Assembly (NCBI RefSeq): GCF_014764365.1
Contig: NZ_CP061718.1
Location: 3,612,501-3,676,500 of the forward strand
DNA: 64,000 nt
DNA from: Roseococcus microcysteis
GTDB taxonomy: Bacteria > Pseudomonadota > Alphaproteobacteria > Acetobacterales > Acetobacteraceae
Direction of reading: 5' to 3'
Shown: in pieces, positions 6,516 to 29,906 of the stretch
How positions within the stretch are numbered: position 1 is the first letter of the stretch
How the letters are laid out: every line of letters begins with the position of its first letter
Notes under the pieces: model-generated
What the model was told of the DNA's origin: nothing
The model's database searches: none
Seen by the model: only the letters and a program-made list of their open reading frames with translations
Translations under genes and position numbers: made by a program

Positions 6516-6538
6516 GGGGCCGGATGACACCCGGCCCC
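6516..6538 (+). terminator. sucA-sucB intercistronic hairpin
   Basis: Perfect 8-bp stem GGGGCCGG/CCGGCCCC with a 7-base loop, 29 bases after the sucA stop and 38 bases before the sucB start. No T-tract follows, so it is more likely an mRNA stability or processing element, or a partial attenuator, than a full terminator. Confidence 0.45.
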
Positions 6539-6576
6539 CCGATGCCCTAGATCAGGGGCAAAGAAGGCAGAGACCA

Positions 6577-7818
6577 ATGGCGACGGACATCGTTGTGCCC
6601 ACCCTGGGCGAAAGCGTGAGCACGGCCACCGTGGCGCGCTGGATGAAGCAGGCCGGCGAGGCCGTGGCGGCGGATGAGCCGCTGGTGGAACTGGAGACCG
6701 ACAAGGTCACGGTGGAGGTGAATGCCCCCGCCGCCGGCGTGCTGGAGGCCATCACCGCCCAGGAGGGCGCCGAGGTGGAACCGGGCGCCGTGCTGGGTTC
6801 CATCGCCGTCGGCGCCGGCGCCGCGGCCAAGCCCGCCGCGGCCCCTGCCGCCGCGCCGACCTCCGCCGCCAAGCCCGTCGGCACGGGCGGGGGTTCGGTG
6901 AAGCAGGCCGAGGCGCATGGCACCGCCCCGGGCGGCCACGCGCCCCTTCCCGCGGCCGCCAAGCTGATGGCCGAGAACAATGTGACGCAGGCGCAGATCG
7001 GCCAGGGCTCCGCGAAGGATGGCCGCATCGCCAAGGGTGATGTGCTCGACTTCCTGAGCCGCCCGGCCGGCGCCGGCGCGCCCGCCCCTGCCGCCGCCAA
7101 GCCCGCCCGCAAGCTGGAAGGCGGCGAGGAGCGGGTGAAGATGACGCGCCTGCGCGCCACCATCGCCCGCCGCCTGAAGGAGGCGCAGAACACCGCCGCC
7201 ATGCTGACCACCTTCAACGAGGTGGACATGGGCGCGGTCATGGCGCTGCGCGCCGAATACAAGGACCATTTCGAGAAGCGCCACGGCGTGAAGCTCGGCT
7301 TCATGTCCTTCTTCGTGAAGGCCTGCGTGGCCGCGCTGAAGGAATTCCCCGCCGTCAACGCCGAGATCGAGGGCGACGAGGTCATCTACAAGAACTTCGT
7401 TCATATGGGCATCGCGGTGGGCGGGCCCTCGGGCCTCGTGGTGCCCGTGCTGCGCAATGCCGATGAGATGGACTTCGCCAAGATCGAGAAGACCATCGCG
7501 GATTTCGGCAAGCGCGTGCGCGACGGCCAGCTGAAGCTGGAGGAGATGGCGGGCGGCAGCTTCACCATCACCAATGGCGGCATCTATGGCTCGCTGATGT
7601 CCACGCCCATCCTGAACCCGCCGCAGTCCGGCATCCTGGGCATGCACAAGATCCAGGACCGGCCCATGGCGGTCGGTGGCAAGGTCGAGGTGCGGCCCAT
7701 GATGTACCTGGCCCTGTCCTATGACCACCGGATCGTGGACGGGAAGGAGGCGGTGAGCTTCCTGGTCCGCGTGAAGGAGGCCATCGAGGATCCGCGCCGC
7801 CTCATGCTGGGCGTCTGA
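6577..7818 (+). CDS. sucB: 2-oxoglutarate dehydrogenase E2 (dihydrolipoyl succinyltransferase)
   Basis: Core acyltransferase of the 2-oxoglutarate dehydrogenase complex. The 413 residues contain one lipoyl domain (lipoyl-lysine K43 in [10 protein letters not shown]), an Ala/Pro linker, an E3-binding domain around residues 115-155 ([14 protein letters not shown]..., [13 protein letters not shown]), and the catalytic domain ending with [10 protein letters not shown] (catalytic H384 and D388). The start at 6577 is preferred over an upstream in-frame ATG (6514) because it begins directly with the lipoyl domain and follows an AAGAAGGCAGAGA ribosome site. It lies downstream of sucA on the same strand. 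Confidence 0.97.
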
Positions 7819-27055: not shown

Positions 27056-28024
27056 TCAGTCGGAGATGCGCTCGATCCGGTTCGCCTCCACCACCTGGCG
27101 CCAGCGGGCGATCTCACCCTGCACATGGGCGGCGAAGCGCTCGGGCGGGCCGCCCTCGGGGCGGGCGCCCAGGGTGCGGAGACGTTCCTGCACGGCGGGG
27201 TCCGCATTGGCCTCGTTCAGCAGGGCGTTCAGCCGCGCCACGATATGCGGGGGCGTGCCGCGCGGGGCCATGTAGCCGAACCAGGGCTCGACCACCGCAT
27301 CCGCCACGCCGACCTCCGCCAGGGTGGGCACGTCCGGCAGCTGCGGGTCGCGCTCGCGCCCACTGACGACCAGGGGGCGCAGCTGGCCGCCGCGGATGGC
27401 GCCGATCAGGGTGGGGACGTTCTCGAACTTCATCTGGGTGGCGCCTTGCATCACTGCCTGCATTCCCGGCGCGCCACCCCGGAAGGGCACGTGGGTCAGC
27501 TGCAGGCCGAGGCGGAAGTTCAGCAGCTCCGGCAGCAGGTGGTTGGAGCTGCCGAAGCCGGAGGAGGAGAAGTTCACCGCCGTGCCCTGCTGCCGCGCCC
27601 AGGCCAGGAATTGGGGAAAATCCTGCGCCGGATGGTCGGGCCGCACCACCAGCACGTTCATCACGCTGCCCGACCAGAAGACCGGCACCAGGTCGCGCGA
27701 GATGTCATAGGGCATGCGCGCATAGATGCTGGCGTTGATGGCGCAGTTGCCGATGGTGCAGGCGCCGAGCGTGTAGCCATCGGGCGCGCTGCGTGCCGCC
27801 AGGTCCATGCCGATATTGCCATTGGCGCCGGCGCGGTTCTCCACCACCCAGCGCTGGGGCAGGTCGCGGCTGGCCCGGTCGGCGAAGACGCGGGCGATGA
27901 TGTCGGTGGCGCCGCCGGGCGGGAAGGGCACGATGATGCGCACCGGCCGCTCGGGGTTCCATTCCTGCGCGGCCGCGGGCACGGCCAGCAGCAGCGCGGC
28001 AAGCGCGAGAAGGGTGCGACGCAT
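27056..28024 (-). CDS. Bug-family (TTT) periplasmic binding protein
   Basis: Tripartite tricarboxylate transporter receptor of 322 residues with signal peptide MRRTLLALAALLLAVPAAAQ. The Bug pattern is WNPERPVRIIVPFPPGGATDIIAR, VVENRAGANGNIGMDLAA, THVPFRGGAPGMQAVMQG and GGQLRPLVVS. The start at 28024 follows a GGAGGA ribosome site. Bug proteins usually bind carboxylates or small aromatics; no TctA/TctB membrane genes are in the window, so it is an orphan receptor. Divergent from leuA. Confidence 0.92.
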   Translation of the reverse strand: MRRTLLALAALLLAVPAAAQEWNPERPVRIIVPFPPGGATDIIARVFADRASRDLPQRWVVENRAGANGNIGMDLAARSAPDGYTLGACTIGNCAINASIYARMPYDISRDLVPVFWSGSVMNVLVVRPDHPAQDFPQFLAWARQQGTAVNFSSSGFGSSNHLLPELLNFRLGLQLTHVPFRGGAPGMQAVMQGATQMKFENVPTLIGAIRGGQLRPLVVSGRERDPQLPDVPTLAEVGVADAVVEPWFGYMAPRGTPPHIVARLNALLNEANADPAVQERLRTLGARPEGGPPERFAAHVQGEIARWRQVVEANRIERISD

Positions 28025-28095
28025 GGGTTTCCTCCGGATTTTCCGGCAGGCTATCCCGCGCGTCGCGGGGGCGGAAGCAGGACGGCGCGGGGCGC

Positions 28096-28125
28096 TTGAT
28101 TTCCCGCGCCCGCCCGGGCTAGCCT
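28096..28125 (+). promoter_or_regulatory. Candidate promoter of the leuA leader
   Basis: TTGATT (28096-28101) and TAGCCT (28120-28125) are separated by 18 bases. Initiation about seven bases after the -10 would fall at the ATG of the leader peptide (28132), so the leader could be translated from a leaderless transcript. The -10 match is weak. Confidence 0.4.
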
Positions 28126-28131
28126 TCACAC

Positions 28132-28233
28132 ATGCGCGCTGCGACGCCCTTCGCGAAGCCCACCATCCGGCCCCAGGCCGGCGCTTCGCTGCGCGCCCTT
28201 TCGCTCCTTCTCCTTCGACTTACGCGCCCCTGA
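28132..28233 (+). CDS. leuL: Leucine-rich leader peptide upstream of leuA
   Basis: A 33-residue frame between the Bug gene and leuA. It has seven leucines, all near the end, with a run of four (LRALSLLLLRLTRP). Leu codons include four CTT, which is rare in such a GC-rich genome. This composition, the position before leuA and the overlap of its TGA stop with a stem are the classic features of an attenuation leader. No Shine-Dalgarno is seen, fitting a leaderless start. Leader peptides of this kind are known before leu operons in other bacteria; function here is inferred. Confidence 0.7.
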   Translation: MRAATPFAKPTIRPQAGASLRALSLLLLRLTRP

Positions 28234-28278
28234 GCGTGATGCCCGGCCGTGCGCCGGTGTCGCTCAGGGGGTAGCCCC
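28227..28278 (+). promoter_or_regulatory. leuA attenuator hairpins
   Basis: CCCCTGAGCG (28227-28236) pairs with CGCTCAGGGG (28261-28270), with an inner CCGGC/GCCGG stem (28243-28247/28253-28257). The leader TGA sits inside the 5' arm. The GGGG at 28267-28270 can instead pair with CCCC at 28275-28278 across GTAG. A ribosome stalled on the leucine codons would leave the long stem free; one reaching the stop would cover its 5' arm and free GGGG for the small hairpin. No U-tract follows, so the final termination step is unproven. Confidence 0.55.
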
Positions 28279-28325
28279 GGCGGCGAAGATGCCGCATGTC
28301 GGAACGAAACGAAGCGAGACGTCAC

Positions 28326-29906
28326 ATGGCCATCAACCACCCCTCCTTCGGCACCCTGGCCGAAGACCGCATCATCATCTTCGACACGACCCTGCGCGAT
28401 GGCGAGCAATCGCCCGGCTTCTCCATGAACCTGGACGAGAAGCTGCGCATGGCCGAGGCCCTGGCCGATCTCGGCGTGGACGTCATGGAAGCGGGCTTCC
28501 CCATCGCCTCCATGGGCGATTTCGAGAGCGTCGAGGCCATCGCCAAGCGCTTCGCCAAGGATGGCCCGGTGGTCTGCGGCCTGGCCCGCACCTCCCCGGC
28601 GGACATCCTGCGCGCGGCCGAGGCCATCAAGCCCGCCGCGCGGCGCCGCATCCACACCTTCGTCTCCACCTCGCCCCTGCACATGCGGGTGAAGCTGCGG
28701 ATGGAGCCGGAGGCGGTGCTGGAACTGGTCACGGCCAGCGTCTCCCTCGCGCGCCAGCACACGGATGACGTGGAATGGTCCGCCGAGGACGGCACCCGCA
28801 CCGAGCATGACTTCCTGTGCCGCTGCGTGGAGGCCGCCATCAAGGCGGGAGCGACCACCATCAACATCCCCGACACGGTGGGCTACGCCGTGCCGGAGGA
28901 CATGTTCCACATTTTCAACATGTTGCGGGAGAAGGTTCCCGGTGCGGATGGGGTGATCTTCTCCACCCACAACCACAATGACCTGGGCCTGGCCGTCGCC
29001 AATACGCTGGCCGCCATCCGCGCGGGCGCGCGGCAGGTGGAATGCACCATCAACGGCATCGGCGAACGGGCGGGCAATGCGTCCCTGGAGGAGGCCGTGA
29101 TGGCGCTGCGGACGCGCCAGGACGCCATTCCCACCACCAACAGCATCGTCACCACCAAGCTGCTGAAGGTGTCCAAGCTGCTGGCGGCCACCACGGGCTT
29201 CGACGTGCAGCCCAACAAGGCCATCGTGGGCCGCAACGCCTTCGCGCATGAAAGCGGTATCCATCAGGATGGTGTGCTGAAGGATGCCTCGACCTACGAG
29301 ATCATGACGCCCGAATCCGTGGGCTGGACCACCAATTCCCTGGTGCTGGGCAAGCATTCGGGCCGCGCCGCCTTCCGCGACCGGCTGAAGAGCCTGGGCT
29401 ATGAGATCGGCGACAACCAGCTGAACGACGCCTTCAAGCGTTTCAAGGACTTGGCCGACCGCAAGAAGGTCGTCTACGACGAGGACATCGCGGCCCTGGT
29501 GGATGACGAGGTGGGCCGCGCCAACGAGACCATCCGCCTCACGGGGCTGAACGTCTCCACCGGCATGGGCACCAAGCCCATGGCCACCATCACCCTGGAG
29601 GTGGATGGCGAGCGGCGAGACGGCATGGCCATCGGCGATGGCGCGGTGGACGCCACCTTCAACGCGCTGCGCCAGGCCTACCCGCATGAGGTGAACCTGA
29701 AGCTCTATGCGGTGCAGTCCGTCACCGGCGGCACCGACGCCCAGGCGCGCGTGACCGTGCGCTTCGAGGAGAAGGGCAAGCTGGTGGACGGGCAGGGGGC
29801 GGACACCTGCACCATCGTCGCCTCCGCCCGTGCCTATGTGCATGCGCTGAACAAGCTGCTGGTGAAGCGGGAGCGGACGGAGCCGCCGGCGGTGTTGCGC
29901 GCATAG
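28326..29906 (+). CDS. leuA: 2-isopropylmalate synthase
   Basis: First committed enzyme of leucine synthesis, condensing acetyl-CoA with 2-oxoisovalerate. 526 residues from ATG 28326; an in-frame ATG at 28296 would add ten residues (MSERNEARRH) and both have weak ribosome sites. Catalytic domain: IFDTTLRDGEQSPGFSM, STHNHNDLGLAVANTLAAI (metal histidines) and ECTINGIGERAGN. The C-terminal LeuA allosteric domain, which binds leucine for feedback, runs from about residue 405 to the end (MATITLEVDGERR..., ADTCTIVASARAYVHALNKLL). Preceded by the leucine leader and attenuator. Confidence 0.95.
   Translation: MAINHPSFGTLAEDRIIIFDTTLRDGEQSPGFSMNLDEKLRMAEALADLGVDVMEAGFPIASMGDFESVEAIAKRFAKDGPVVCGLARTSPADILRAAEAIKPAARRRIHTFVSTSPLHMRVKLRMEPEAVLELVTASVSLARQHTDDVEWSAEDGTRTEHDFLCRCVEAAIKAGATTINIPDTVGYAVPEDMFHIFNMLREKVPGADGVIFSTHNHNDLGLAVANTLAAIRAGARQVECTINGIGERAGNASLEEAVMALRTRQDAIPTTNSIVTTKLLKVSKLLAATTGFDVQPNKAIVGRNAFAHESGIHQDGVLKDASTYEIMTPESVGWTTNSLVLGKHSGRAAFRDRLKSLGYEIGDNQLNDAFKRFKDLADRKKVVYDEDIAALVDDEVGRANETIRLTGLNVSTGMGTKPMATITLEVDGERRDGMAIGDGAVDATFNALRQAYPHEVNLKLYAVQSVTGGTDAQARVTVRFEEKGKLVDGQGADTCTIVASARAYVHALNKLLVKRERTEPPAVLRA

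Follow-up and report, generated by a model that had tools for sequence, protein, structure and literature searches.

A conserved leucine leader upstream of leuA in Acetobacteraceae and other alphaproteobacteria as a candidate translational attenuator

The DNA in front of leuA in Roseococcus microcysteis raises the question of whether a leader peptide governs this gene and, if so, at which step. Amino-acid operons under the control of a leader peptide are mostly portrayed as regulated at transcription termination. The window, meaning the whole stretch of DNA analysed, spans 64,000 nucleotides of a genome assembled as a single 4.2 Mb contig; the features discussed here are collected in Table 1. 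The leuA product carries all three domains expected of a 2-isopropylmalate synthase (Pfam), and its named best matches are from Roseomonas-type Acetobacteraceae. The neighbouring genes are unrelated, with a TctC-type receptor gene upstream on the opposite strand and mreB downstream. An in-frame ATG at 28296 was rejected as the leuA start in favour of 28326 because it is not kept in relatives: an in-frame stop follows it in locus L087, and locus L127 has no ATG there.

Table 1. Features of the leuA leader region (positions in the window)
Feature	Position	Strand	Basis or remark
Promoter: -35 TTGATT (28096-28101), 18-nt spacer, -10 TAGCCT (28120-28125)	28096-28125	+	Sequence; predicted start is the A of the leader ATG, 28132
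Leader ORF, 33 codons, MRAATPFAKPTIRPQAGASLRALSLLLLRLTRP then stop; predicted leaderless	28132-28233	+	Sequence, ORF list, relatives, promoter position
Control codons CTC CTT CTC CTT CGA CTT ACG CGC; 5' arm of putative long-range helix P0	28204-28227	+	Duplex energy, swap tests, near-invariant CTT CGA CTT
P1 hairpin: CCCCTGAGCG (28227-28236) pairs with CGCTCAGGGG (28261-28270)	28227-28270	+	Covariation, model match
Small hairpin GGGG-TAG-CCCC	28268-28278	+	Sequence; three bases in common with the P1 3' arm
Putative P0 3' arm, through the weak SD-like GCGAGA (28314-28319) of leuA	28292-28319	+	Duplex energy, SD pairing probability
leuA, 2-isopropylmalate synthase	28326-29906	+	Pfam HMGL-like, LeuA_dimer, HCS_D2

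The original prediction had described a frame with seven leucine codons, four of them the rare CTT, just before leuA and had read it as a leucine leader peptide. The frame is present as described, with four CTT, two CTC and one CTG codons for leucine. CTT is indeed rare, making up 3.7% of the leucine codons in the 35 coding-like ORFs of the window; against this background, at least four CTT among seven leucine codons have a binomial probability of 6e-5. We compared 179 distinct regions upstream of leuA, taken from Acetobacteraceae and other alphaproteobacteria; in 159 of them a leader ends in LLLRL(T/S/I)RP or ..RPWA before its stop. This rule was our own and was applied once the frame with the best score had been chosen, which leaves a few unconvincing cases, such as L084, among the 159. 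Of 186 regions at the outset, L009 was excluded as too short and L103 and L105 for having no leuA start; these exclusions and the merging of identical regions left 179. The 20 that failed the rule are L019, L037, L046, L048-L052, L058, L060, L063, L069, L073, L123, L159, L168, L170, L173, L174 and L181, some of which (e.g. L019, L173 and L181) by eye still have a leucine-containing ending. One of the checks originally proposed was conservation of leucine codons and stems in relatives, and a leucine-containing ending and the stop-codon stem are kept. Since a like ending and the stem recur upstream of leuA in these 159 regions and the stem covaries in 46 sequences, the leader is not a chance frame.

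The leader of the window stops at Arg-Pro because codon 28231-28233 is TGA. This codon is TGG in about half of the relatives (49/96) and TGA in 40/96, and many relatives' leaders end RPWA, two codons past the end point in the window. An ending in RP and a stop is, we presume, like that of TnaC.

The nucleotides encoding the leader end are also conserved. Our main comparison set held 131 loci, mainly but not solely from Acetobacteraceae, in which leuA could be aligned from residues 1-4; L035, L079, L149 and L177 were left out for want of a start codon, and L084 stayed in a second set of 60 mostly more distant loci. For the family, a leuA match was present in 127 of 150 genomes, 30 of which came as loci, and 60 of the other 97 were fetched. 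Among 96 nonredundant loci of the main set, CTT (78), CGA (92), CTT (93) and CCC (96) occupy positions -15, -12, -9 and 0 relative to the proline codon, the last of which was itself used to place the loci, and CTT accounts for 260 of the 501 leucine codons in these leaders. A search for an exact nucleotide motif gave a single occurrence in each of 26 out of 289 alphaproteobacterial genomes, the source genome included; in a sample of the phylum the motif was found in 8 of 51 genomes of the same class and in none of 149 others, and the reversed motif, a control, in 1 of 289 and 3 of 200 genomes. Counting the source locus, 32 of 33 exact-motif loci lie upstream of leuA; only L201 (motif at 1501) has no leuA match in the surrounding 3 kb.

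The stop codon of the leader had been placed inside a long stem, and this holds: the TGA sits in the 5' arm of P1. Over 46 sequences, standard pairs fill 96.3% of 460 cells of P1, as against 26-56% when the partners are slid by 1-3 columns, and six of the ten pairs have changes on both sides. A covariance model built from 46 of 86 selected segments scores the P1 of the window, a member of its training set, at 68.4 bits. Across 192 alphaproteobacterial genomes it gives a single match in each of 52, a group that includes some contributors to the model, and no match in the remaining 140. It also matches the minus strand at window positions 28227-28270 (22.8 bits), because P1 is so symmetric; a weak match on the minus strand at 6532-6581 (14.8 bits, E 0.06) is probably due to chance. 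Rfam release 15 gave no match at the gathering score in the window, and the sole sub-threshold match in 28050-28400 was to mir-1193 (E 5.1).

What do the leucine codons pair with? In the window the P0 duplex, 28204-28227 with 28292-28319, has a computed energy of -15.8 kcal/mol, and the Shine-Dalgarno (SD) core pairs with the leader end with a computed probability of 0.73. In relatives, the 30 nt before the proline codon were tested against the 40 nt before the leuA ATG with partners swapped among loci, so that general composition cancels. For the 96 nonredundant of 131 loci, own pairs scored -18.26 and swapped pairs -15.55 (sd 0.29; 0 of 20,000 permutations). The test repeated on 49 nonredundant loci of the 60 gave -18.85 against -15.92 (sd 0.45; 0 of 20,000); the two nonredundant sets share three loci. 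The distant-set signal also holds with only 25 nt before leuA. Control segments, namely an upstream leader segment and leuA codons, gave no swap signal in either set. Within the genus of the window the signal is weak (286 of 20,000 with 20 loci; 1,068 of 20,000 with 9 nonredundant loci). In the distant set, some match to the region after P1 is seen as well for an earlier part of the leader, at -60 to -25 (171 of 10,000), so the match there is not confined to the last codons.

The position of the match is informative as well. The swap signal extends from about -44 to -8 and vanishes beyond the leuA ATG. Among the 59 loci with at least 60 nt between P1 and the ATG, the match is located in the final 25 nt ahead of leuA (z -4.9, 0 of 20,000), and no match was seen at -50 to -25 (z -0.7) or directly after P1 (z -0.4). 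With shorter spacers (83 loci), all three segments, which largely overlap, show it; of 143 loci, one belonged to neither spacer class and seven yielded no SD core. The anchoring of the match to the ribosome-binding site is our main argument for control of translation. Masking of the SD core by the leader averages 0.48 over 136 loci compared with 0.36 with foreign leaders, a modest gap. Pairing was rejected as the reason for the rarity of the CTT codons used: leaders recoded at random with synonymous codons reach much the same pairing strength as the natural ones (the median share of recodings that equal or exceed it is 0.545 for 96 loci and 0.415 for 60, and the share is 0.25 for the window), so pairing strength does not account for these codons.

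Modelled ribosome states point the same way on average. Over 96 loci, the mean cost to open the leuA ribosome-binding site falls from 6.26 kcal/mol in the free RNA to 4.46 kcal/mol with a ribosome on the leucine codons, and is 6.54 and 5.58 kcal/mol with a ribosome on early leader codons and on the stop, respectively; a ribosome on the stop codon thus also opens the site somewhat. Averaged over leucine stalls, opening becomes easier by more than 1 kcal/mol at half of the loci (48 of 96) and harder by more than 1 at 6. In the window the cost is 7.0 kcal/mol free, 2.8 with a ribosome at leucine codon 28198 and 8.1 at the stop; codons 28210, 28213 and 28219 give 4.4, 3.1 and 3.5, and codons 28204 and 28207 give no release (7.5 and 6.7). 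In the same model, the genus members L094 and L097 show little masking and L085 only a small release.

A further part of the original prediction was that transcription starts at the leader ATG, leaving a leaderless message. On the basis of promoter position, such a start is predicted in the window and at 98 of 128 mainly Acetobacteraceae loci, where a good -35/-10 pair, judged by a simple score of our own, would place the start at the in-frame leader ATG; shifted positions gave 3-14%. A stricter generic scan listed no promoter. At more distant alphaproteobacterial loci, where the claim does not carry over, the true position gave the arrangement in 4 of 44 and shifted positions gave it in 2-14%. 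A leaderless start as a general alphaproteobacterial trait was rejected, since 4/44 is within the control range; given the two counts, the promoter arrangement looks like a trait of the family. Many leaderless mRNAs are reported for Caulobacter and Sinorhizobium in the excerpted text of PMC4117421, and S. meliloti trpL is described as translated from a leaderless mRNA in that of PMC10117765.

Given the above, we put at roughly two in three the probability that this is a translational attenuator, in which the ribosome-binding site of leuA would be covered by the leucine codons and exposed when a ribosome stalls on these codons. The mRNA would begin at the leader ATG, and translation of the leader would start with no ribosome-binding site. 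When leucine is sufficient, ribosomes would read through the leucine codons, reach the stop within P1 and dissociate; the freed codons could then form P0, which would enclose P1, with the nucleotides immediately ahead of leuA and so conceal the ribosome-binding site. When charged leucyl-tRNA is scarce, a ribosome would stop on the leucine codons, P0 could not form and leuA would be translated. The limiting tRNA may be the GAG isoacceptor, which reads CTT and CTC. Sequence comparison supports the leader, P1, the match between leucine codons and ribosome-binding site, the leaderless promoter (mainly in Acetobacteraceae) and the lack of a general terminator; the stalling, the direction of the response, the use of an isoacceptor and all kinetics we infer.

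Of the competing explanations, Rho-dependent attenuation or polarity survives best, although we consider it improbable. Poor translation of leuA would let Rho stop transcription in or before the gene; P0 would still set the switch, and the read-out would be partly at the mRNA level. No intrinsic terminator was found in the window and relatives have few near P1, the leader end is pyrimidine-rich, and the LEU-element paper (PMC1262725), in excerpt, proposes Rho for some cys leaders that lack terminators. However, this route is compatible with translational attenuation and does not exclude it.

Classic transcription attenuation, as originally predicted, appears somewhat less probable still. P1 would act as the antiterminator and the small hairpin at 28268-28278 as an intrinsic terminator lacking a T-tract. 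The proposed competition between stem and second hairpin stands insofar as the two share three bases, and an alternative hairpin is more stable than shuffled sequence in the mainly Acetobacteraceae set (-6.5 vs -4.4; at 36% of 96 loci it exceeds 95% of the shuffled versions), but not in other alphaproteobacteria (-3.3 vs -3.6). In addition, T-rich stretches anywhere between P1 and leuA exceed those in shuffled sequence in both sets (11/96 vs 6.1 and 19/60 vs 7.5), so some lineages may terminate transcription. However, no terminator-like site with a U-tract was found in 27500-28900, no T-rich tail follows the small hairpin, and a T-rich tract lies within 14 nt of P1 in only 3/96 and 2/60 loci; an intrinsic terminator was accordingly rejected for the window, and is rare near P1 in relatives. 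Classic attenuation also gives no reason for the leucine codons to match the leuA ribosome-binding site, and the original reading of the locus as a classic attenuator was abandoned. Very improbable is a folded leader that serves as a protein binding site with the peptide incidental, as the excerpted PMC1262725 suggested for the actinobacterial LEU element: the strong nucleotide conservation extends to synonymous sites (CGA 92, CTT 93 and CCC 96 of 96 loci), but the leucine-rich frame is kept in distant relatives with varying number and position of leucine codons, and a pure binding site would not need a frame.

The known system nearest to this leader is the actinobacterial LEU element (Seliverstov et al. 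2005, PMC1262725, here from excerpts). There, likewise, a leader ORF with a leucine run precedes leuA, and a base stem, in which the leucine codons pair with the Shine-Dalgarno box of leuA, encloses internal helices, as it would here. A conserved pseudoknot is reported for that element; here one type of swap test, of the P1 interior against the region after P1 in the one register tried, detected none (9,003 of 10,000 permutations for 96 loci and 1,195 of 10,000 for 50 loci reached the observed value), and we therefore call the leader LEU-like and not a proven LEU member. The two also belong to different phyla, and the P1 sequence of actinobacterial leaders differs by eye from that of the window. 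All five actinobacterial leuA loci inspected, from four species, have leucine leaders before leuA, each followed by what by eye is a GC-rich inverted repeat, and the alphaproteobacterial model matches one of the five (Microbacterium L229, 18.1 bits, E 0.01, a rough value). Tsukamurella tyrosinosolvens (L226, L228) has two leuA genes on plasmid-labelled records, each with a leucine-containing leader ORF upstream; the record of L227 is likewise labelled a plasmid though 11.85 Mb long, and is presumably the Nonomuraea chromosome. One Tsukamurella leader (L226:887-937) contains CTCCTTCTCCTT codons identical to those of the window, with which the GAAGGA site of its leuA (L226:997-1002) could pair, and a TAGGGT box lies 7 nt before its ATG; LeuA of the window is only 26% identical to Tsukamurella LeuA (H30). 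In the excerpts of PMC1262725, the authors of the LEU element doubted attenuation and suggested a protein, and work cited there described mutations in the Streptomyces leuA leader whose effects were at odds with classical attenuation.

Other leaders resemble the present one in part, as far as the excerpted sources describe them. LeuL1 of Streptomyces lividans (PMC8079986) is similar in being a leaderless leucine leader of leuA, MRFGLLLLSCRGEGL, lacking a typical Rho-independent terminator; the excerpt treats it among attenuators and gives no mechanism. The leuA leader of C. glutamicum is described as a putative attenuator peptide (PMC4046766) and that of M. abscessus as a ribosome-protected uORF (PMC4974804). 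Among alphaproteobacteria, TrpL of Sinorhizobium meliloti is a leaderless leader peptide whose translation was seen by ribosome profiling, but it differs in sensing tryptophan and in being a transcription attenuator that gives rise to an sRNA (PMC10117765). The Caulobacter ilvIH leader (PMC4117421) and an alphaproteobacterial ilvB leader (mentioned in PMC1273637) serve branched-chain amino acids in the same class, the former differing in that it is called transcription attenuation; the word leuA is absent from the main text of both papers. Among the papers listed by keyword searches of the literature, we found no alphaproteobacterial description of the leuA arrangement, and a 2004 survey of proteobacterial attenuators (Vitreschak et al.), outside those papers, may mention alphaproteobacterial leuA leaders.

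Taken across both phyla, we give even odds to a broader reading in which LEU-type sensors would be a widespread translational attenuator of leuA in Actinobacteria and Alphaproteobacteria, with leucine codons doubling as the mask of the ribosome-binding site, some lineages leaderless, and no terminator, protein or riboswitch needed. Sequence comparison here points to regulation at translation initiation, exerted by the control codons themselves across a large class of bacteria, and brings back into view an actinobacterial element for which the mechanism was still unsettled in 2005, as the excerpts of PMC1262725 present it.
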